In this document: in pieces, positions 918 through 18,341 of the stretch | How the letters are laid out: each line of letters begins with the position of its first letter | How positions within the stretch are numbered: position 1 is the first letter of the stretch | NCBI GenBank assembly: GCA_000433015.1 | Contig: HF998008.1 | Coordinates: forward strand, 244-18,584 | From: Firmicutes bacterium CAG:631 | Lineage (GTDB): Bacteria; Bacillota_I; Bacilli_A; RFN20; CAG-631 | DNA length: 18,341 nucleotides | Reading direction: 5' to 3' | Program-made: the position numbers and the translations under genes | The notes under the pieces: model-generated | Databases searched by the model: none | What the model saw: only the letters and a program-made list of their open reading frames with translations | Told to the model about the DNA's origin: nothing

Positions 918-3900
918 TTATGCTAAAACATCTTGGTATAAAGACCAAAGGATACTAGAAGAAATGTAAAGTTCTTTATCAGTAACTTGAACTTTAAAAT
1001 CATCTGATAAGGAATCAAAAACATTTAAGTCAATCTCTACTACAGTTGAACTATTTAAAACTAAACTTTCTAATGATGTTGCACTATCAAAGGCTCCACG
1101 ATTAATTTTTGTTAAATTTTCAGAGCCAATAATTTGCGTAACAGTGGCATTACCACTAAATGCACCACCTGCAATGGTCGTTACAGAATCAGGTAAAGTG
1201 ACAACTGCATCCTCTCCTTTGTATAAAATTAAAATTCCATTGACAATAATAAAGTCATCCTCTGATTGATTTAACCATTTTGTTGCAGCAAATGCCTTGT
1301 TTCCTGCGTTTGTTAAAGCGGTTAATGAAGCTGCATCAATTTCTAAATTCGTACAGCCATAAAAAGCTTCATCTCCGATAGTTTCTACATTCTTTAAATT
1401 AATGGTGGATAAATTTCTACAGCCATAAAAGGCTCCGTTACCAATAGTTGTAATCGTATCTGGTAATTCAATACTCTTTACAAAAGAATAACCATCAAAT
1501 GCATGATCTAAAATTATTGTTGAGCCATCTGAAATGATAATTTTTTCTAATGATGCAGGAATACTATTAATATTATTTCCAAAAGCTGTAAAAGTTAAAA
1601 TATTACTATTATGTTCAATTTCTTTTAATGAATTGGCACCATACAATACACCTAAATCAAAACTAACATTAAATTCAAAAGTAGCAGATTCTAATAATAA
1701 AGCATAACTAAATGCATATTCGCTTAAATGTAAATCCGTTTCTTTTGGTAAAACCAAATCAGTAATACTTGAACCGGCAAATCCATAACGACCAATACTT
1801 TGTAATTGACTATTAGATGAACCAATTGAAATTTGTTCTAAGGAATAACTATATCTTCCAGCATTAGAAAGAATAGAAGTTAAATGTGTTTCAATTTGAC
1901 TTAAAGCCGTTGTTTGATCATTGGTAATTGTTAAGTTGTTTGGATTTGAAGCCATATTGAATGCAAAAGCATAGTCGCCAATGCTAGTGACTTGATTTGG
2001 AATATCAATAGATGTTAATTGATCAAAATAGAAAGCACCAACATCAATGGATGTTAAAGTTTGTGGTAAATAAACGGTTTGTAATTGACGACAATTTGCA
2101 AAAGCAGCAAATGGAATCGTTTCTAATTGTGTATTGGCTAAATTAACATGTGTTAAAGATTGACAATTTGTAAAAGCAAATGTGCCAATTTCTTTTAATG
2201 AAGTTGGGAATGTAATTGATAATAAGGCACTACAATTATAAAATGCTGAAGTTCCAATACTTTCTAAAACAGAAGAAGAAGGAATCGTGACATTTTGCAA
2301 TGCCGTACAATTTGAAAAGGCATTATCTCCAATAGAGACTAAGGTGGAAGGTAAACTAATATTTACAATTCTTCTACCTTGGAATGCTTCTTGATTAATA
2401 TGTGTTACGCCTTCCGGAATGGTTACATCCGTTGCATTTCCGTTATAAACAATTAAAACATGATTTAAAATGACCATTCCATCTTCAAAAGAAGAAACAA
2501 AAGCAGTATTGTTAAATGCTCTTGGATGAATCACTGTTGCCGAAGTTGTAATTGTTCTTAAGTTCGTACAATTATTAAAAGCATTTTCTTGTATGGTATG
2601 AATAAATTCTGGCAAATGCATTTGAACTAATGAAGTACAGTTACTAAAAGTATTAGAATAAATTACTTGATTTTCTTGTTCAGCTTGGCTAAATGCATTC
2701 GCATCAAAAGAAGCATTTGTTAAATTACGAGCACTTTCAAATGCATTATTTCCTAAATATTTCATAGTGGCAGGCAGATGAATGCTTGTAATTCCACTAC
2801 TATAGAATGCACGTTCTCCAATGCTTTCTAATTGACTATTGGCTTCAATTGAAAATTCAGATAAATTCGTTGTATCAGCAAAAGCATAATTACCAATGCT
2901 TTTTAAAGAAGCAGGCAAAGTCATTTGTACTAATTGATCATTACCTTCAAAAGCATTATTTCCAATGCTTTCTAATTTTGCATTTGCACCAAAAGTAACA
3001 CTCGTTAAACCATTTCTACCTGTTAAAGTAGCAAATGCAGAATTACCAATACTAATCACACTTGATGGAATGTGTATCGTTTTTAAACTATATAACATTG
3101 AAAAAGCAGAATCACCAATGGTTTCTAATTGAGAGTTATTGGTAATTGTAAAAGTTGATAAATTGATATTATAAGAAAAGGCATTTGCACCAATCGTTAC
3201 TACTGAATCTGGTAATTGGATAGATTCAAGTTTTAAAGAAGTCGTATCTGTTCGTTGATCCAAACGAGAAAAGGCTCCTTCATCAATGGTTTGTAATTGA
3301 CTATTCGTAGCAAATTGGAGTGTATACACATTAGAACAACCTGAAAAAGCATTTTTTCCAATATAAGTAACATTGCTTGGAATCGAAATAGATGTAATTT
3401 GTGTATTGCTAGCAAACGCAGAATCATAAATACCTACCAAACTAGAAGGTAATGTAATGGATGTGAAATTTTTATTTTCGTAGACATTATTTGCAATATA
3501 GCGAATACCATTATCAACAACCAATTCCGTACCTGTAGCTGTTTCATCTTTAATCAAAATATTATTGACAATAATTTTATTTTGATTGCGATACCATGGT
3601 GTTGATGAAAAAGCAGTAGAATCAATTTCTACTAATTGATTATTCGTATTGTGGAAAGTGATATTTTCAACTTGTGAACAACTATTAAAGGCACTTGCCT
3701 TTATTCGTTGTAAAGATTCAGGGAAAGTAATGGTTGTTAATGAAGTATTTTGTGAAAAAGCAGAATCACCAATGATTTGAAGTTGACTGCCTTCTTCAAA
3801 AGTTAAGGTTGTCGCATTGGTGAATTCAAATGCATTTGCACCAATTTCTTGAATGCATTTTGGTAAGCGGATTACTTGCTGATCTGTTTCCGTGACGGAA

Positions 3901-5102
3901 TCAATTTGAGGCCCAAAATAAGTAAATGCATCACCATTCAATATTCTAGAAAAAGCAGAAGCACCAACTTTTTGTAATTGACTATCTGGTTCAAACATCA
4001 ATGTTTCTAGACTCGATGATTTTCCTGAAGTAATTCTAAAAGCGCCTTCTCCCAATTCTTTTAATGAAGCTGGTAAAACTAAAGATCTTAAAGAAATTGC
4101 ATCTAAAAATGCACTATCACCAATTGTTGTGACATTACTTTTTCGACCTTCATAATTAAACTCAATAGAAGTTAAGTCATCAATTCTTGAAAAGGCTTCT
4201 GTTTCAATCGTTGTAACAGATGGAGGTAAAACCACTGTTTCTAAATAAGTTTCAGAAAAACATAATTCTGGAATCGTAGATAAAGACATATTGGCATGAA
4301 AAGTTACACTTTCCAATCTAGAATCATAAAAAGCGCGACTACCTAATGTGGTTAAAGATTGAGGAAAAGCAATGGTTTCAATTCTTGAACCTTCAAAAGC
4401 AGAAGTTTCAATTGATTTTAAACCATCATTTAAGGTAATCTCTTCTAAATCAGAGTTATAAAATGCTTCTATACCGATAGATTCAATCGTTGAAGGAAGA
4501 ATTACACTTCTTAAAGAAGAAGCACTACGAAAAGCTTGATCGGCAATTCGTACGACTGTAAAACCATCAATTTCTGATGGAATTTCAATATCTTCTAAAT
4601 TTTCTTCATCCGCACTGGAACTAAAGCCTGTGACTTCAATAGTGATTTGATCTGCCGTATTCGTCCCATAATAACTATAAGCGAAATTTGAAGCAGCAGC
4701 TTCCTTGTTATAATAAATACTAGAATAAGAAGAATCATCGTATCCTCCTTCTGTACCCAATGCTTTGACACTAATCAAGTAAGCCTTTCCTTCTTCAAAA
4801 TCATCATAACGATAAGAAGTTTGTGTGACACGACTTTCAATTTCTTTTCCATCAATATTAATGACATAGCCACTTGCACCATAGACAATATTCCATTGAA
4901 TGGTTGATGTTCTAGAGTCATATGTCAATCCTGTTGGAGCAGTTAATTTTGAATAATCGCTGACAGGATCCTTATCAGAAGAATCTGGATCATTTGTCAA
5001 CCAGTTATCTGAAGAATTATTACATGCAGTTAGCATTAAAGCGCTACAAATAAACGCAATTGAAAGCCCTCTCAAAAACTTTTTTGATTTTTGTTGTTTC
5101 AT
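918..5102 (-). CDS. BspA-like leucine-rich-repeat surface lipoprotein
   Basis: A 1394-residue exported protein. Residues 1-27 form a lipoprotein signal peptide: basic start, hydrophobic core, lipobox LTAC with the lipidated cysteine at 27. A Ser/Asp/Asn-rich linker follows, then a fibronectin-III-like domain at about 53-131 (APTGLTYD, IQWNIVYGASGYVINIDG). From about 171 to 1380 there are roughly 45 LRR_5/BspA-type units of about 23 residues, with cores such as IGDSAFSQNTSLTTITFPESL. Three islands near residues 503, 870 and 1275 carry a variant module (for example IIVNGILILYKG). In known BspA-type proteins such arrays bind host or microbial surfaces; adhesion here is inference, and the ligand is unknown. 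The start is supported by AGGAGG at 5115-5110. No sortase motif is seen, so anchoring is by lipid. It lies between mtnN and nusB, two housekeeping genes, which suggests a lineage-specific insertion. Confidence 0.9.
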   Translation of the reverse strand: MKQQKSKKFLRGLSIAFICSALMLTACNNSSDNWLTNDPDSSDKDPVSDYSKLTAPTGLTYDSRTSTIQWNIVYGASGYVINIDGKEIESRVTQTSYRYDDFEEGKAYLISVKALGTEGGYDDSSYSSIYYNKEAAASNFAYSYYGTNTADQITIEVTGFSSSADEENLEDIEIPSEIDGFTVVRIADQAFRSASSLRSVILPSTIESIGIEAFYNSDLEEITLNDGLKSIETSAFEGSRIETIAFPQSLTTLGSRAFYDSRLESVTFHANMSLSTIPELCFSETYLETVVLPPSVTTIETEAFSRIDDLTSIEFNYEGRKSNVTTIGDSAFLDAISLRSLVLPASLKELGEGAFRITSGKSSSLETLMFEPDSQLQKVGASAFSRILNGDAFTYFGPQIDSVTETDQQVIRLPKCIQEIGANAFEFTNATTLTFEEGSQLQIIGDSAFSQNTSLTTITFPESLQRIKASAFNSCSQVENITFHNTNNQLVEIDSTAFSSTPWYRNQNKIIVNNILIKDETATGTELVVDNGIRYIANNVYENKNFTSITLPSSLVGIYDSAFASNTQITSISIPSNVTYIGKNAFSGCSNVYTLQFATNSQLQTIDEGAFSRLDQRTDTTSLKLESIQLPDSVVTIGANAFSYNINLSTFTITNNSQLETIGDSAFSMLYSLKTIHIPSSVISIGNSAFATLTGRNGLTSVTFGANAKLESIGNNAFEGNDQLVQMTLPASLKSIGNYAFADTTNLSEFSIEANSQLESIGERAFYSSGITSIHLPATMKYLGNNAFESARNLTNASFDANAFSQAEQENQVIYSNTFSNCTSLVQMHLPEFIHTIQENAFNNCTNLRTITTSATVIHPRAFNNTAFVSSFEDGMVILNHVLIVYNGNATDVTIPEGVTHINQEAFQGRRIVNISLPSTLVSIGDNAFSNCTALQNVTIPSSSVLESIGTSAFYNCSALLSITFPTSLKEIGTFAFTNCQSLTHVNLANTQLETIPFAAFANCRQLQTVYLPQTLTSIDVGAFYFDQLTSIDIPNQVTSIGDYAFAFNMASNPNNLTITNDQTTALSQIETHLTSILSNAGRYSYSLEQISIGSSNSQLQSIGRYGFAGSSITDLVLPKETDLHLSEYAFSYALLLESATFEFNVSFDLGVLYGANSLKEIEHNSNILTFTAFGNNINSIPASLEKIIISDGSTIILDHAFDGYSFVKSIELPDTITTIGNGAFYGCRNLSTINLKNVETIGDEAFYGCTNLEIDAASLTALTNAGNKAFAATKWLNQSEDDFIIVNGILILYKGEDAVVTLPDSVTTIAGGAFSGNATVTQIIGSENLTKINRGAFDSATSLESLVLNSSTVVEIDLNVFDSLSDDFKVQVTDKELYISSSILWSLYQDVLA
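960..4592 (-). repeat. Tandem leucine-rich-repeat array (about 45 BspA-type units, protein level)
   Basis: The encoded protein repeats a ~23-residue unit with consensus IxxIGxxAFxxCxxLxxIxLPxSL, varying in length where loops are inserted. The repeat is clear at the protein level, but neighbouring DNA units are diverged. This points to an old array rather than recent slippage or recombination. I counted about 45 AF-type cores by eye, a few of them degenerate (LCF, NVY, NTF). Confidence 0.8.
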
Positions 5103-5899: not shown

Positions 5900-6238
5900 T
5901 TAATTGACCTTCACGATGGGATAATTCGCCCAAAGTTTTTCTAATCCATAATGAATTCGTGCTTCTTTTGTAAAAATATGAATAATGTAATCATTTGCGT
6001 CAACTAAAACCCATTCACTCGAACTTTTTCCTTCTACATTACGAATAGGAATATCATTGATTTCACAAGCTTCTTTCAATGCTTGCCCAATGGCTAAAGC
6101 ATGCCGATTACTTGTAACTGTCGTAATGATAAAAAAACGAGCTAAGGGATTGTTTTGACTGACATCAATATAAATGAGATCTTCACCCTTTTTATCTAAA
6201 ATGGTTTCAATTAAAATTTGCATTTTTTTATCTTCCAT
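5900..6238 (-). CDS. rsfS: Ribosomal silencing factor RsfS
   Basis: A 112-residue protein of the RsfS/DUF143 (Iojap) family. It binds ribosomal protein L14 and blocks joining of the subunits, damping translation in starvation. The family pattern is plain: IYIDVSQNNPLARFFIITT, NVEGKSSSEWVLVDANDYIIHIF, then YGLEKLW near the end. I choose the ATG at 6238 (MEDKKMQIL). An AAGGA sits 8 bases upstream, and this is the usual N-terminus; a start at 6268 would add ten non-conserved residues. It overlaps the nadD-yqeK stop by 11 bases and is followed by mtnN after 1 base. The linkage with nadD and yqeK is the standard Firmicutes arrangement. Confidence 0.95.
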   Translation of the reverse strand: MEDKKMQILIETILDKKGEDLIYIDVSQNNPLARFFIITTVTSNRHALAIGQALKEACEINDIPIRNVEGKSSSEWVLVDANDYIIHIFTKEARIHYGLEKLWANYPIVKVN

Positions 6239-7355
6239 TGTCCTTTTCCTTTCTTTTATAATAATCAATCATTAAAACGAGCCAAGGATCTATCCATTTT
6301 TGACTGTTTTTTAAGTAACGATATTGATCTTCCATTGTCCAAATAAAAGCTTTATCAATATTTTGGTAGGCCTCTTTACGAATGTCTGCAACTGCATTTG
6401 CAAATTCTCTTTCTTCTTCTAATTTATCAGCACAATAAATAATTTTATCTAGTTTAGACATTTTCTTACTAGAACGGCAATGGCTAGCTATTGCTTTTAA
6501 TGTTTTAACATCAGAAATGCCATAGATGGTTTTTGCTAAATAAGCACTTGCATATTGATGATGACAATATTCTGGTTTTTTTAATTTTGTAGGAAAGTGT
6601 TGTTCCATAATTTGTCGAATTTCATCTTTTGGCAAAGCTTTTGAGACATCATGCAAAATACCAGCTACATAAGCACGATTCGTATTTTGTTGATTTTTTT
6701 GTGCTAGTGCTTTAGCTAATCGTGCCGTAGATAAGCAATGAATAAATAATCGTTCAGGTAAATGAGGCATTAACCGTTCTTTTAAATATAATTCATGCTC
6801 TTTGATATATTGTTGAATGGATTCATCAATTTCATCATAATACCCCGCACGAACTTTTGTACTAGAAGCATCAATTTGTTTACCATCAATGATAAGAATA
6901 TGGTATTTTTGCGCCAATTTTTCATTAATGATATATCCAGGTCTTTTAAAACAAACAAATTGAAATAATTTTGTCAATTGATCAATCTTATACCATCGTT
7001 CTATATTATTTAATTGATCTGCACCAATTAAAAAATAAAATTGATACTGATTTTTATATTTTTTGTTCAAAAGACGAGCGGTATTATAAGTATAAATCAG
7101 TTTTTTATTTCGATCTTTAAGTTCAATATCACAAATTTTAAAATTTGGAAATTCTACTAAAGCCATTTTCATCATGGCTATTCGATGTTTTCCATCTAAT
7201 AGTAAAGAACCATCATAATTATATTTTCGTGGAATAAACCAAACTTCTTGACATTGCAAATAATTGGATGCATTTAATGCTGCATTAATATGTCCCTTAT
7301 GAATAGGGTTATACGATCCCCCAAAAAGTAATATTTTAGTTTGTTCCATAAGCAT
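6228..7355 (-). CDS. nadD-yqeK: Fusion of nicotinate-nucleotide adenylyltransferase (NadD) and YqeK HD-domain hydrolase
   Basis: One 375-residue chain joins two enzymes that are separate adjacent genes in Bacillus. Residues 1-190 are NadD, which makes deamido-NAD from nicotinate mononucleotide and ATP. They carry the nucleotidyltransferase motif GGSYNPIHKGH (12-22) and SSTKVR (164-169). Residues ~195-375 are a YqeK-type HD phosphohydrolase, the family that splits Ap4A symmetrically. Candidate metal ligands are His206, His235-Asp236, His265/266, His292 and Asp310 (in YCADKLE). No stop or frameshift separates the halves; the linker is only a few residues (ERLMPHLPERL). Start: ATG at 7355, with AAGGA 5 bases upstream; an ATG at 7349 is also possible, and a start at 7409 would overlap yhbY by 74 bases. 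It overlaps yhbY by 20 bases and rsfS by 11. From memory, a comparable fusion exists in Mycoplasma. Confidence 0.92.
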   Translation of the reverse strand: MLMEQTKILLFGGSYNPIHKGHINAALNASNYLQCQEVWFIPRKYNYDGSLLLDGKHRIAMMKMALVEFPNFKICDIELKDRNKKLIYTYNTARLLNKKYKNQYQFYFLIGADQLNNIERWYKIDQLTKLFQFVCFKRPGYIINEKLAQKYHILIIDGKQIDASSTKVRAGYYDEIDESIQQYIKEHELYLKERLMPHLPERLFIHCLSTARLAKALAQKNQQNTNRAYVAGILHDVSKALPKDEIRQIMEQHFPTKLKKPEYCHHQYASAYLAKTIYGISDVKTLKAIASHCRSSKKMSKLDKIIYCADKLEEEREFANAVADIRKEAYQNIDKAFIWTMEDQYRYLKNSQKWIDPWLVLMIDYYKRKEKDNGR

Positions 7356-7629
7356 TGATTTCCTTGTTCTTTTTATAAAGAATGATGGTTCGTCCAATGA
7401 TGAAAACAACCTCAGAAGAAGTAACAGAAGCTAATAATTCAGCTAATTCTTCCTTTTCTAATCCACTATAAGTTTTTAATATTGAAATTTTGATGAGTTC
7501 TTGTTTTTTGATGACTTGTTGAATACTTTGAATCACATTTTGAGTAATGCCATCTTTACCTATAAGTACAACTGGCTTTAAGTTTGTTGCCGCTTTTTTT
7601 AATTGATTTTTTTCTTTTTTTGTTAACAT
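7336..7629 (-). CDS. yhbY: CRM-domain RNA-binding protein YhbY (ribosome assembly)
   Basis: A 97-residue protein matching the whole CRM (YhbY) domain: LTKKEKNQLKKAATNLKPVV, the GKDGIT loop near residue 24, and the closing strand IIGRTIILYKK. Members bind precursors of the large ribosomal subunit and act with GTPases such as YqeH in ribosome maturation. The ATG at 7629 has GAGGTGG 4 bases upstream. It follows yqeH after 12 bases; in Bacillus aroE stands in that gap and is absent here. The 3' end overlaps nadD-yqeK. Confidence 0.93.
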   Translation of the reverse strand: MLTKKEKNQLKKAATNLKPVVLIGKDGITQNVIQSIQQVIKKQELIKISILKTYSGLEKEELAELLASVTSSEVVFIIGRTIILYKKNKEINAYGTN

Positions 7630-9323: not shown

Positions 9324-9360
9324 TCATTTTTTTTTGATATATTAGGATGAGGTGCTATGG

Positions 9361-10056
9361 ATGTTTCAAATCATTATTGAATTATTTAAAAATTTATCTT
9401 TGTATGTTGGCTATATTAAAAATGGGGTCTTTCATTCTCCATTAAGTCAAGAAGATGAAGAACGTTATATTAAAATGCTGTTTTCTGAAAAAAAAGAAGA
9501 AGCCAGAACAAAATTGATTGAACATAATTTACGTCTTGTTGCTCATATTTGTAAAAAATATGAAAATTGCAACGAACAATTTGATGATTTAGTGAGTATT
9601 GGAACAATTGGTTTAATTAAGGCCGTTGATACATTTAGTGAAGAAAAAGGTAGTAAATTGGCAACTTATGCTGCCCGGTGTATTGAAAATGAAATTTTGA
9701 TGCACTTAAGAAGCACGAAAAAAAAGAATAATGATGTCTATTTGTTTGATTCAATAGGCGAAGATAGTGATGGCAGTGACATTACTTTAATGGATGTTTT
9801 ACCCGCTCCTGTTGAAGATTTATCAGAAAAATTAGATAAAGAAAATAACATTAAATATCTAACGCAATTTCTTAAAATTCTTGATCCAACCGAATTAAAA
9901 ATTATTTCTTATCGCTATGGATTAAATGGCAAACCAGAAATGACGCAAAAAGAAATCGGGAAAATGTTTAACATTTCCCGATCGTATGTTTCTCGAATTG
10001 AAAAACGGGTATTAACAAAGTTACTTTTTGAATTTAGAAAAAATGGATTAGCCTAA
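9361..10056 (+). CDS. sigK: Sporulation sigma factor SigK (pro-sigma-K)
   Basis: A 231-residue sigma-70 family factor. Region 2 contains HNLRLVAHICKKYEN, the conserved SIGTIGLIKAVDTF and KLATYAARCIENEILMHLR. Region 4 ends with the helix-turn-helix MTQKEIGKMFNISRSYVSRIEKR. The LVAHI and MHLR wording and the KKxxxDVxLxDxIGxDxxG segment match SigK rather than SigE. The N-terminus, MFQIIIELFKNLSLYVGYIKNG, parallels the hydrophobic pro-sequence of Bacillus pro-sigma-K, which SpoIVFB clips before YVKNN. SigK drives late mother-cell genes for spore coat and cortex. The ATG at 9361 is chosen because GAGGTG lies 6 bases upstream; a GTG at 9352 is possible. The gene is whole, not split by a skin-type element. 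It ends directly against the parC stop. Confidence 0.92.
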   Translation: MFQIIIELFKNLSLYVGYIKNGVFHSPLSQEDEERYIKMLFSEKKEEARTKLIEHNLRLVAHICKKYENCNEQFDDLVSIGTIGLIKAVDTFSEEKGSKLATYAARCIENEILMHLRSTKKKNNDVYLFDSIGEDSDGSDITLMDVLPAPVEDLSEKLDKENNIKYLTQFLKILDPTELKIISYRYGLNGKPEMTQKEIGKMFNISRSYVSRIEKRVLTKLLFEFRKNGLA

Positions 10057-15450: not shown

Positions 15451-15678
15451 TTAACGTTGTTGATTCATTGCATTCATGACTTGACGTATTTGCGCTTCAG
15501 ATGGGGTTCTTCCCATTTGTTTAAACATAACGCGAATCATTTTTTCATTAATCGGAGGATTCTTTTTTAGACTCCGTTTAAATAAACTTCTTGCAACAAA
15601 AAAACCAATAATGCCACCCACAACAAGTCCGATGGCACACCATAAAATTGAATTACCGACAGCACTAAAGATGATCAT
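15451..15678 (-). CDS. yneF: UPF0154 small membrane protein YneF
   Basis: A 75-residue protein with one N-terminal transmembrane segment (about 8-30, LWCAIGLVVGGIIGFFVARS). A conserved cytoplasmic tail follows: KKNPPINEKMIRVMFKQMGRTPSEAQIRQVMNAMNQQ. This is the UPF0154 family, whose function is unknown. The ATG at 15678 has AGGAGG 8 bases upstream. In Bacillus yneF follows tkt and sirA; here the same order is kept on the minus strand, but a plus-strand protease gene stands between. Confidence 0.92.
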   Translation of the reverse strand: MIIFSAVGNSILWCAIGLVVGGIIGFFVARSLFKRSLKKNPPINEKMIRVMFKQMGRTPSEAQIRQVMNAMNQQR

Positions 15679-15834: not shown

Positions 15835-17430
15835 ATGAAAAAAAGATTATTTTTATGGGTCGGTTTATCATTGATAACGTCTCTTTCATTAGCCGGTTGT
15901 CAACAAAAAACATTGAATTCCAATACGATTCCTTCAAACTCAACGACCTCTAATTCTTCTAGCATTGAAAAAGAACCAATGATTATTCCTGAAAATAAAG
16001 CTACAGATAGTGAATATGCTTTTGAATTTGATAGTGTTACTTTTTCACCAAGTCCAACGCCTTCTTCTGGAACCAATTATTATACACCTGAAGAATTTGC
16101 CTTTACATATAAAGAAGTTCGTGATGGAGAAATTTATTTTGATCCTGCAACAACTGGAAGTCAACGTATTTTAGTGATTCCTGTTAAATTCCAAGACGAT
16201 GCAACAATATCTTCTTGTCGCAATTATGTTGGTGGATGCGACAAAGCATTAACTGATATTGAAAAAGCCTTTTTTGGAGACCCAAGTTATACGGGATGGG
16301 AATCCGTTAGTAGTTATTATTATAAATCAAGTTATGGCAAGTTAAAATTACAAGGTCGCGTGACGGATTGGTTTATAGTTGATAAAACAAGTCGTCAAGT
16401 TAATGGTTTATCTACACAAATCTATGCCGACCAATCTTATTATGTTTTAAGAGAAGCGGCAAAATGGTATGAACGAAATTATGGCGATTTAGAATATTAT
16501 GACCAAAATGATGATGGATATGTCGATGCCATTTGGTTAGTCTATGATCATCGTTATACGGGCTCAGATATTTGGTGGGCTTATACATTCTGGGATTATC
16601 AAAATACAGCTAGTGGATTAAAACCTTATACTTATGCCTGGGCAAGTGTTGACTTTTTATATGAAGGGTTATATCAACAAAATGGAGTTGCTGTTGCTGA
16701 TGCCCATACTTTCATTCATGAAACAGGACATGTTTTAGGTTTAGATGACTATTACAATTACGATGAAAATAGCACGTATGGAGCTGCTGGAAAAATTGAT
16801 ATGATGGATTACAACATTGGCGATCACAATGCTTATTCTAAAATGCTATTGGGTTGGACGATGCCAAAGGTCGTCACTGGTGATACGACCATTACCATTG
16901 CCCCTTTTGAATCAAGTGGGGATTGTATTTTAGTCCGTGGAGATTCAACATGGAATCAAACTGCAATGGATGAATATCTTTTAATTGAATTTAGTACACC
17001 AACTGGGCTAAATTATTTAGATTCTTTGCAACCTTATACCGGTGGTGTGCAACATTTTACAGAATCCGGAATTAAAATTTACCATATTGATTCTCGTCTT
17101 GGTGTTTTTGATTATTGGGGTAACTTATCTTATTATACAGATACTTTGACCGGAGAACCCTCTATTGTCCATTCTAATACTACACAAAGCAGAAGCACAG
17201 ATGAGTTTTTAATTCATCTTTTGGAAGCAACCGGAACCAATACTTTCCAATATGGAAGATCAGCAACCAATGAAACACTATTCCAAAAAGGAGATACATT
17301 TACTCCTAGTCAATTTGCAAACTTCTTTGCCAATGGCACACGTTTCAATGATGGAACAGAAATTGGTTATTCCATAACCATTGATGAAATTACAACTAAC
17401 AGTGCTACAATAACTTTTAAAAAGGTCTAA
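15835..17430 (+). CDS. M6-family (immune inhibitor A-like) zinc metalloprotease lipoprotein
   Basis: A 531-residue exported protein. Residues 1-22 are a lipoprotein signal peptide with lipobox LAGC (Cys22), followed by a Ser/Asn/Thr-rich linker to about residue 80. The catalytic domain shows HETGHVLGLDDYY at 295-307, the HExxH zinc site with Glu296 as likely general base. Downstream is DMMDYNIGDHNAYSKMLLGW (322-341), typical of M6 peptidases. Residues 223-231 (DQNDDGYVD) form an EF-hand-like calcium loop. Cys128 and Cys135 could form a disulfide. The region after ~345 is probably beta-rich. The protein would be membrane-anchored on the outer face and degrade extracellular proteins; the substrate is unknown. 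It has its own promoter and terminator, so it is a self-contained unit between yneF and the SirA-like gene. The Shine-Dalgarno (AAAGG, about 12 bases upstream) is weak. Confidence 0.9.
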   Translation: MKKRLFLWVGLSLITSLSLAGCQQKTLNSNTIPSNSTTSNSSSIEKEPMIIPENKATDSEYAFEFDSVTFSPSPTPSSGTNYYTPEEFAFTYKEVRDGEIYFDPATTGSQRILVIPVKFQDDATISSCRNYVGGCDKALTDIEKAFFGDPSYTGWESVSSYYYKSSYGKLKLQGRVTDWFIVDKTSRQVNGLSTQIYADQSYYVLREAAKWYERNYGDLEYYDQNDDGYVDAIWLVYDHRYTGSDIWWAYTFWDYQNTASGLKPYTYAWASVDFLYEGLYQQNGVAVADAHTFIHETGHVLGLDDYYNYDENSTYGAAGKIDMMDYNIGDHNAYSKMLLGWTMPKVVTGDTTITIAPFESSGDCILVRGDSTWNQTAMDEYLLIEFSTPTGLNYLDSLQPYTGGVQHFTESGIKIYHIDSRLGVFDYWGNLSYYTDTLTGEPSIVHSNTTQSRSTDEFLIHLLEATGTNTFQYGRSATNETLFQKGDTFTPSQFANFFANGTRFNDGTEIGYSITIDEITTNSATITFKKV

Positions 17431-17458
17431 AAAGTGGATTCACAAATCCACTTTTTTT
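17430..17458. terminator. Bidirectional terminator between the M6 protease and SirA-like genes
   Basis: AAAAGTGGATT (17430-17440) pairs with AATCCACTTTT (17445-17455) over a 4-base loop, giving an 11-bp stem. A T-run follows on the plus strand (to 17458) and a shorter one on the minus strand. It overlaps the stop codon of the minus-strand gene. Confidence 0.88.
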
Positions 17459-17831
17459 AGACAGTTATCAAATTTTTATCTTCACTTAATTGTTGATATT
17501 GGCTCAATAAAGAATTGCATTTTTTAAATAATATTTGGTGCGGATTATCATATTCATAACAAATATAATGTTCATAAAAAATCATTTGTTCAAAGATTTC
17601 CTCTCCAACAATGAGATGAATCACATTTTCGGCCACTGTCAATTTTTCTAAATCATGACATAAATTTTTACATTGTTGTAAAATAACTGGAATATTTTGC
17701 TTTTTTAAAACAATTTCTAATTGTTTTTGACATGATTCTAAATGAAAATTATCAAAAAGATTTTGAATTATGTCAGGACTTAATTGTTTGTCATAAGGTT
17801 CATTCCATTGATAAAATATAACTTTATGCAT
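17457..17831 (-). CDS. Small protein of unknown function; candidate divergent SirA (sporulation inhibitor of replication)
   Basis: A 124-residue cytoplasmic protein without signal, membrane segment or recognised catalytic motif; it is rich in His, Tyr, Gln and Cys. Position is the main clue: it directly follows tkt and, apart from the inserted protease, precedes yneF, the place of sirA in Bacillus. From memory of Bacillus SirA, the segment LFDNFHLESCQKQ (residues ~25-37) resembles LFQDYHWTSLEKQ. The later stretch MIFYEHYICYEY then ILFKKC vaguely follows the SirA C-terminal half. SirA binds DnaA domain I and blocks new initiation in cells entering sporulation. The similarity is weak, and the candidate is shorter than the ~148 residues of SirA. 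The ATG at 17831 has AGAGGTG 7 bases upstream. An unrelated protein in the same slot is a real alternative. Confidence 0.4.
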   Translation of the reverse strand: MHKVIFYQWNEPYDKQLSPDIIQNLFDNFHLESCQKQLEIVLKKQNIPVILQQCKNLCHDLEKLTVAENVIHLIVGEEIFEQMIFYEHYICYEYDNPHQILFKKCNSLLSQYQQLSEDKNLITV

Positions 17832-17832
17832 T

Positions 17833-17876
17833 AAAAAACACCTCTTTTTCTTTTTTTATTATAAGAAAAAGAAGTG
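17833..17876 (-). terminator. Intrinsic terminator of tkt, containing the next gene's Shine-Dalgarno
   Basis: On the minus strand, 17876-17863 and 17852-17839 form a 14-bp stem (one G-U pair) with a 10-base loop, followed by six T (17838-17833). The T-run ends one base before the start codon of the SirA-like gene. The 3' arm contains AGAGGTG, that gene's only Shine-Dalgarno. Read-through tkt mRNA should therefore fold the ribosome site into the stem. Confidence 0.8.
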
Positions 17877-17881
17877 TCGAA
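17858..17881 (-). promoter_or_regulatory. Candidate promoter with Spo0A-box match upstream of the SirA-like gene
   Basis: A perfect TATAAT lies on the minus strand at 17863-17858, in the loop of the tkt terminator. TGTCGAA (plus strand, 17875-17881) fits the Spo0A box TGNCGAA and covers the area just upstream. No SigA-like -35 lies at 17 bases, as is usual for activator-dependent promoters. The box sits at about -24 to -30 from the predicted start near 17851, a little closer than in classical Spo0A-activated promoters. AT-rich chance remains possible. Confidence 0.4.
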
Positions 17882-17900
17882 AAATCGCAAATGATAAGAT

Positions 17901-18341
17901 TTATAACATCTTTTTTACTTTTTGAACAATTGTTTCTACATCAAAATGGAAATAAGCGATGACATCTTCTGCTTTTCCGCTTTTACCAAATTCATGCATG
18001 CATAGAGTTTCTTTTGCGTATTTATGCCAACCAAATTCACTGGCCATTTCAATCGCTAATCGTTTTTGACAATAAGATGGCAAAACTTCTTCTTGATAAT
18101 CTTTTGATTGTTGTTCAAAAAGATAAAAAGAAGGCATAGAGACGACGCGAACATCAATATTTTCTTGCTTTAAAGCTTCTTTTGCTTGATAAGCTAAACC
18201 TACTTCACTGCCTGTTGCAATTAAGATGGCGTCTAGTTGTTTTTCTTCTGGCGCAATAACATAGGCCCCATATTGAACTTTTTTTGCACTAGACAAAGGC
18301 AATGTCGTCAAATTTTGTCTAGATAAGATAATGGCTGGTGG
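17901..18341 (-). CDS. tkt: Transketolase, C-terminal part (cut by window edge)
   Basis: The frame is open from the window edge to TAA at 17903-17901, giving 146 residues. It begins PPAIILSRQNLTTLPLSS, the conserved end of the pyrimidine-binding domain. The C-terminal transketolase domain follows: ILIATGSEVGLAYQAKEAL, VRVVSMPSFYLFEQQ, MASEFGWHKYA and FGKSGKAEDV. Transketolase moves two-carbon units between sugar phosphates with thiamine diphosphate in the pentose phosphate pathway. An in-frame TTG at 18311 could be mistaken for a start, but homology continues upstream, so this is a truncated view of a longer gene. A strong hairpin terminator follows. Confidence 0.95.
   Translation of the reverse strand, partial: PPAIILSRQNLTTLPLSSAKKVQYGAYVIAPEEKQLDAILIATGSEVGLAYQAKEALKQENIDVRVVSMPSFYLFEQQSKDYQEEVLPSYCQKRLAIEMASEFGWHKYAKETLCMHEFGKSGKAEDVIAYFHFDVETIVQKVKKML

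Follow-up and report, generated by a model that had tools for sequence, protein, structure and literature searches.

A diverged protein between tkt and yneF of Firmicutes bacterium CAG:631 is very probably a SirA orthologue

The DNA analysed here (the window) is a stretch of 18,341 nucleotides from contig HF998008.1 of Firmicutes bacterium CAG:631, and the gene under study, called X below, encodes a 124-residue protein that is very probably a diverged orthologue of SirA, the Bacillus subtilis protein that binds domain I of DnaA and keeps DnaD off, so that recruitment of the helicase is stopped (PMC10201431). The open reading frame (ORF) of X was judged genuine from its ATG start, the GAGGTG 7 nt upstream, its homologues and its retention after tkt in two relatives. 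As stated in a preliminary description made from the sequence alone, the gene order in the window is tkt, X, an M6 protease gene on the opposite strand and yneF (Table 1), and the window thus has the tkt-sirA-yneF order that we take to be that of B. subtilis. The hairpin between the facing ends of X and the protease gene is likely, from its sequence, to be a terminator common to both.

Table 1. Position, strand and basis of assignment of features in the window
Feature	Position	Strand	Basis
sigK-type sporulation sigma factor	9352..10056	+	NCBIfam PRK05803, 300.8 bits, cut-off 252
yneF (UPF0154)	15451..15678	-	Pfam E 3e-30
M6-type metalloprotease	15835..17430	+	TIGR03296 E 1.7e-24, 87.2 bits, below cut-off 110.8; homologues at corresponding place in four family genomes
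Hairpin GTGGATT...AATCCAC, A/T runs on flanks, between ends of X and M6 protease gene	17434..17451		sequence
X, diverged sirA, 124 residues	17457..17831	-	ORF, homologues, predicted structure, synteny
Ribosome-binding site GAGGTG, 7 nt before ATG of X	17839..17844	-	sequence
TATAAT, possible -10, 21 bp from TTTGCGA	17858..17863	-	inference
Perfect 0A box, TTCGACA on X coding strand (TGTCGAA on + strand), first base at -50 from ATG	17875..17881		motif match
TTTGCGA, imperfect match 3 bp from the perfect box, possible second 0A box and possible -35	17885..17891		inference
tkt, C-terminal part of transketolase, cut by the window end	17901..18341	-	Pfam E 9e-39

A search of 5.8 billion proteins with X returned three homologues (98, 72 and 73% identity), and a six-row alignment used as second query returned seven, some of them near-copies of each other or of the genes in the related genomes G398 and G399. 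Identity of X to these further homologues was 39-49%, and 39-40% to those of G398 and G399. In the resulting 10-row alignment, 29 columns were invariant, some rows being near-copies. No relative of X was found in a search of genome contigs, and X matched no model in Pfam or NCBIfam at E 10. From its own sequence alone, X would remain unannotated.

The fold predicted for X with AlphaFold2 corresponded to that of SirA. The model contained, in order, β1, a short α1, α2, α3, α4, β2-β5 and α5, to be compared with β1-α1-α2-α3-α4-β2-β3-β4-β5-α5-β6-β7 in the SirA structure (PDB 4tps), and it was matched to 4tps from end to end over 119-121 residues at approximately 6 Z units above the remaining matches, with 10-15% identity in the structural alignments. 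Rows labelled ZipA and KA1 in the match lists were taken to reflect a common core and not a rival identity.

Kinship with SirA at the level of sequence was seen through the family of X. The Pfam SirA model (PF10747) did not match X, the proteins P0001-P0003 and P0007 or the G398 homologue, which is read as a limit of sensitivity because proteins that occupy the tkt-yneF gap in related genomes (116-139 residues; slot proteins) do match it, that of G404 with 34.3 bits, over the cut-off, and that of G336 with 21.6 bits against a cut-off of 26. A search of the PDB gave nothing useful for X as a single sequence (best E 1) and weak, unrelated matches for the six-row profile (MAT1, E 0.1), and no confident match to another family appeared in the Pfam, NCBIfam or PDB searches. 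Two alignments were available for comparison, one of eight slot proteins identified purely by synteny and one (A3) of 24 Pfam-detected SirAs sampled across the class (class SirAs; L076, L087, L093, L096, L101 and L103 of the 30 loci fetched were left out), the profile of which matches 4tps at E 5e-9. In hhalign, the 10-row alignment of X matched the eight slot proteins over 122 columns (probability 73, P 3e-5), and with five more members in the slot set the probability was 87.6 (P 3.5e-6; score 39.6 versus a maximum of 18.3 in 100 column shuffles), a figure that is partly circular because the added members were found with an alignment containing X rows. A joint profile built without X scored the homologues of G398 and G399 at 27.6 and 30.2 bits, each equalled by 0 of 2000 shuffles, and P0007 at 9.1 bits (4 of 2000). 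Homology of X to SirA is thus indicated indirectly, through the G398 and G399 homologues and the slot proteins. The likeness to SirA that had been noted around LFDNFHLESCQKQ is real, but an end-anchored alignment places X K36-Q37 opposite SirA K47-Q48 and not opposite K39-Q40.

Relatives of the window were reached through ParC and then tkt, and the nearest family comprised four genomes (G396-G399). In G398 and G399, X lies directly after tkt with the opposing M6 protease gene behind it, while in G396 and G397 tkt faces the protease gene directly. Tkt, protease gene and yneF were on one contig in G396, G397 and G398; the full order is thus visible in three of the four genomes, because yneF of G399 is on another contig. 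A search of G396 and G397 with the X profile gave no accepted copy elsewhere; partial matches (E 0.23 and 0.0019, the latter within a 260-residue frame) were rejected. The protease gene, described earlier as an insertion, is not special to the window since its homologue faces tkt, or tkt and X, in all four genomes, and its presence without X in G396 and G397 indicates that the protease is old at the site and that X comes and goes.

The genomic context of homologues proved favourable, in that the two closest carriers of X keep it beside tkt and have Spo0A. More widely, yneF was found within approximately 1.5 kb of Pfam-detected sirA in 26 of 30 fetched loci, tkt in 17 and both in 16. SirA-like genes of G474, G449 and G490 (L134, L135 and L136) were not seen beside tkt, and each shares a contig with spo0A at a distance of 8-10 kb; those of L134 and L136 are near nusB and an ORF that is presumably Asp23-like. 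G350 (L054/L129) carries its SirA-like gene beside tkt and gave no Spo0A hit. In G401 (L132), which also gave no Spo0A hit, the SirA-like gene is beside an aspS-like ORF on a 2-kb piece without tkt; this comes nearest to what the preliminary description held would count against it, i.e., homologues away from tkt in non-sporulating relatives, and concerns a relative, not X.

The region upstream of X contains a perfect match to the core motif of the 0A box (PMC3485338), one of three perfect 7-mers in the whole window, and the neighbouring TTTGCGA could, from its sequence, form a tandem 0A arrangement with it. Upstream regions of 35 sirA-type genes (24 class SirAs, eight slot proteins, the window, G398 and G399) were compared with those of 140 control ORFs, the latter having been called mechanically in the same loci and many of them not being genes. 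A perfect 7-mer was present on either strand within 150 bp in 15 of the 35 regions, the background frequency in the fetched loci being 0.02 per 150 bp. TTYGACA occurred within 100 bp of 20 of the 35 sirA-type genes versus 3 of the 140 controls, and the layout GACA-N20..22-TANNNT preceded 27 of the 35 (X of the window not among them) versus 1 of the 140, starting between -40 and -60 and mostly between -49 and -52. In G398 and G399 the layout was kept, with 22 and 21 bp, and the boxes were degenerate (ACTGACA and TATGACA). Among five further SirA-like genes, three had TTCGACA at -50 together with the 21 bp layout and one a degenerate box with the layout, while the fifth had TTCGACA at -56 without it; the genes of L134-L136 share the -50 box. 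Examples of the layout upstream of sirA genes, with a TTYGACA-like box near -50 and TANNNT 20-22 bp downstream, are found in L079, L090, L099 and L134-L136. Spo0A-activated sigma-A promoters, that of spoIIG for example, typically have long spacers of 21-22 bp.

The contact core of the B. subtilis complex consists of F14, Y18, Q48 and I52 of SirA and T26, W27 and F49 of DnaA (PMC4285326), and substitutions N47S and A50V in DnaA escape SirA (PMC10201431). The end-anchored alignment pairs F14 with Y13 of X (F13 in G398 and G399), Y18 with L17 (F17), Q48 with the invariant Q37 and I52 with V41/M43; by these pairs, aromatic and Gln contact positions would be partly kept in the X family. DnaA of G398 and G399 has T26, F27, S47, F49 and V50, as does DnaA of G396 and G397, which lack X. 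At the α3 position corresponding to Gln48, 12 of the 24 class SirAs were read as having Leu and nearly all others as having another hydrophobic residue. In G076 and G299 (L108 and L109), whose Pfam-detected SirA has Leu there, DnaA has Met or Leu at 47, Ile at 49 and His at 50 rather than Asn, Phe and Ala; two genomes are too few for Leu at the Gln48 position and Met or Leu at DnaA 47 to be called covariation. The N-terminal part of DnaA was diverged in G260, G157, G109, G028, G377 and G336 (L118-L122 and L124), each of them a genome with a slot SirA, and a search of four of the six gave no match to Pfam DnaA_N.

The claim that the window carries sigK held for the NCBIfam SigK subfamily model (Table 1), though the score for the SigK equivalog model was 287.4 bits against 298.65. 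Together with Spo0A, which was present in all four family genomes, this gene favours a spore-forming host. The distance between spo0A and tkt, both on one contig, was 23-25 kb in G396, G397 and G398, and by analogy spo0A of the window organism would be expected a few kb past the left end of the window. Pfam SirA was detected in 42 of 395 class-sampled genomes of inferred taxonomy, 29 of them over the cut-off, and B. subtilis was the sole positive among 14 controls. Spo0A accompanied Pfam SirA in 42 of 42 genomes and was found in 10 of 11 others of the same search (52 of 53, the exception being G350), compared with 22 of 70 genomes without a listed Pfam SirA (G004-G080 minus matches and minus G028). 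By the joint profile, SirA-like genes were found in 10 of 196 genomes of the order of G396, four of which (G350, G404, G398 and G399) had supplied rows to the profile; a match in G435 (E 0.005) lay inside a 628-residue frame and was dropped. Spo0A was present in 7 of 9 genomes of the order with a SirA-like gene versus 20 of 187 others (Fisher p 1.3e-5).

X had been thought to extend SirA far outside Bacillaceae, but X alone makes no such extension because the ordinary Pfam model already reaches there. A 2012 survey lists sirA for most bacilli but for none of the clostridia, and states that no spore-former of the Erysipelotrichi had then been completely sequenced (PMC3533761). A literature search, with most subscription papers beyond reach and therefore a weak negative, gave no paper on SirA outside Bacilli; a match to sirA in PMC10294663 was the name of an author. 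X is thus a new diverged member of SirA and not the first outside Bacillaceae.

The central proposal of the preliminary description, namely that the sirA slot holds a diverged form of SirA, was borne out by the predicted fold, by the absence of a confident match to another family in the searches above and by the adjacency to tkt and presence of Spo0A in G398 and G399, and X almost certainly belongs to SirA. It is also quite likely, from the combined analyses, that X is a Spo0A-controlled inhibitor of DnaA domain I that has retained its action on DnaA, an explanation supported by the predicted fold, the distant family relationship, the slot, the position of the box and the co-occurrence of relatives with Spo0A. 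Acting at the upstream 0A box, Spo0A~P would turn X on as sporulation begins and, if X acts like B. subtilis SirA, the protein would bind DnaA domain I through helices α1-α3 and keep DnaD, and hence the helicase loader, off oriC, so that no further round of replication would start in a cell committed to sporulation.

Several observations weigh against this explanation. The window protein was equalled by 79 of 2000 shuffles on the 24-SirA profile, by 218 of 2000 on the profile of 24 SirAs and eight slot proteins and, with 3.0 bits, by 184 of 2000 on the largest joint profile (P0002, 2.2 bits, 282 of 2000). In hhalign, six X rows failed against the 24 SirAs (probability 0.2) and 10 rows against eight slot proteins, 20 SirAs and B. 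subtilis SirA gave probability 20 and P 0.001, with a score of 25.3 versus a maximum of 20.2 in 60 shuffles. The profile-profile comparison suggested earlier gave probability 73-88 with the slot proteins and was weak with SirA proper. The X profile had no match at E <= 10 to the slot SirAs of G404, G350, G336, G028, G109 and G157, and no SirA was among 489 database candidates from the search with the X alignment. X lacks β7, and β6 is a two-residue remnant; three of the five models in each run were poor (predicted local distance difference test scores of 35-55), and the PDB entries used to train AlphaFold2 presumably included 4tps. No -10 is present in the window at a spacing of 20-22 bp from the perfect 0A box, and the promoter patterns were framed after the sequences had been seen. 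Finally, the evidence on Spo0A and DnaA comes from relatives of the window organism, and in the X-bearing G398 and G399 the DnaA residues S47 and V50 replace N47 and A50 of B. subtilis; since N47S and A50V escape SirA, either the surface of X has adapted or binding has weakened.

A rival explanation, improbable on balance, is that X descends from SirA and no longer binds DnaA domain I, having drifted to another partner or being in the process of loss from the family. Fast divergence, absence of X from two of the four family genomes that still have Spo0A, the missing β7 and DnaA S47 and V50 all agree with such an outcome, whereas the intact frame, the invariant columns of the alignment (near-copies included), the invariance of the Gln paired with SirA Gln48 and the 0A box kept at -50 in the window count against it, and in six other genomes with Spo0A the slot proteins likewise end before β7. 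Very improbable is chance occupation of the sirA slot by an unrelated small α/β protein resembling the KA1-like core of SirA, given the end-to-end match to 4tps and an hhalign score against the slot SirAs above all 100 of 100 shuffles.

If X is a Spo0A-controlled inhibitor of DnaA, a gene unrecognised by the family libraries searched gains a name and a testable job, and a sporulation brake on replication is indicated in relatives whose genomes are about 1.5 Mb in size. Among the sirA promoters of these genomes, many have one constant layout, in which a box near -50 is followed after 20-22 bp by the -10. The variety of residues at DnaA 47 and 50 amounts to a natural experiment on joint change of an inhibitor and the essential protein that it targets. 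A tentative extension, slightly less probable than its opposite, is that the switch from Spo0A to SirA to DnaA is ancestral across a wide range of small-genome Bacilli-type lineages and that the SirA-DnaA interface was rewritten several times (Gln/Asn, Leu/Met or Leu and, in the X family, Gln/Ser at DnaA 47). X would then be a natural escape-and-recapture variant, binding a form of DnaA (S47, V50) like the SirA-resistance alleles of B. subtilis.

Two other ORFs of the window, both on the minus strand, encode a 393-residue NadD-like nucleotidyltransferase fused to an HD domain, presumably YqeK-like (6228-7409; Pfam CTP_transf_like and HD), and a likely lipoprotein of 1394 residues with 12 BspA-type LRR_5 stretches (918-5102).

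Compared with B. subtilis SirA (YneE; PDB 4tps; PF10747), X has the same predicted order of fold elements and length class, what is presumably the same tkt-sirA-yneF slot, a Gln in α3 at the place paired with Gln48 and a Spo0A box upstream. B. subtilis SirA is itself produced under Spo0A~P regulation (PMC4285326). In contrast with that protein, X falls below Pfam detection, lacks β7, is separated from yneF by an antisense protease gene and has Y13 and L17 (F13 and F17 in G398 and G399) for F14 and Y18, and DnaA of its relatives differs from that of B. subtilis at F27, S47 and V50. The class SirAs share with X the slot in most cases, a box near -50 in many and the presence of Spo0A, whereas most of them keep a C-terminal CDF..DYFWL stretch, and the DnaA sequences compared, those of G076 and G299, carry Met or Leu at 47 together with Ile at 49. 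The slot proteins of G336, G028, G377, G157, G109 and G260 occupy the same slot as X, end before β7 in six of six cases and have KQ at α3 in four of six; against the Pfam SirA cut-off of 26, four of them gave 21.6 bits, 15.0 bits, no match and no match.
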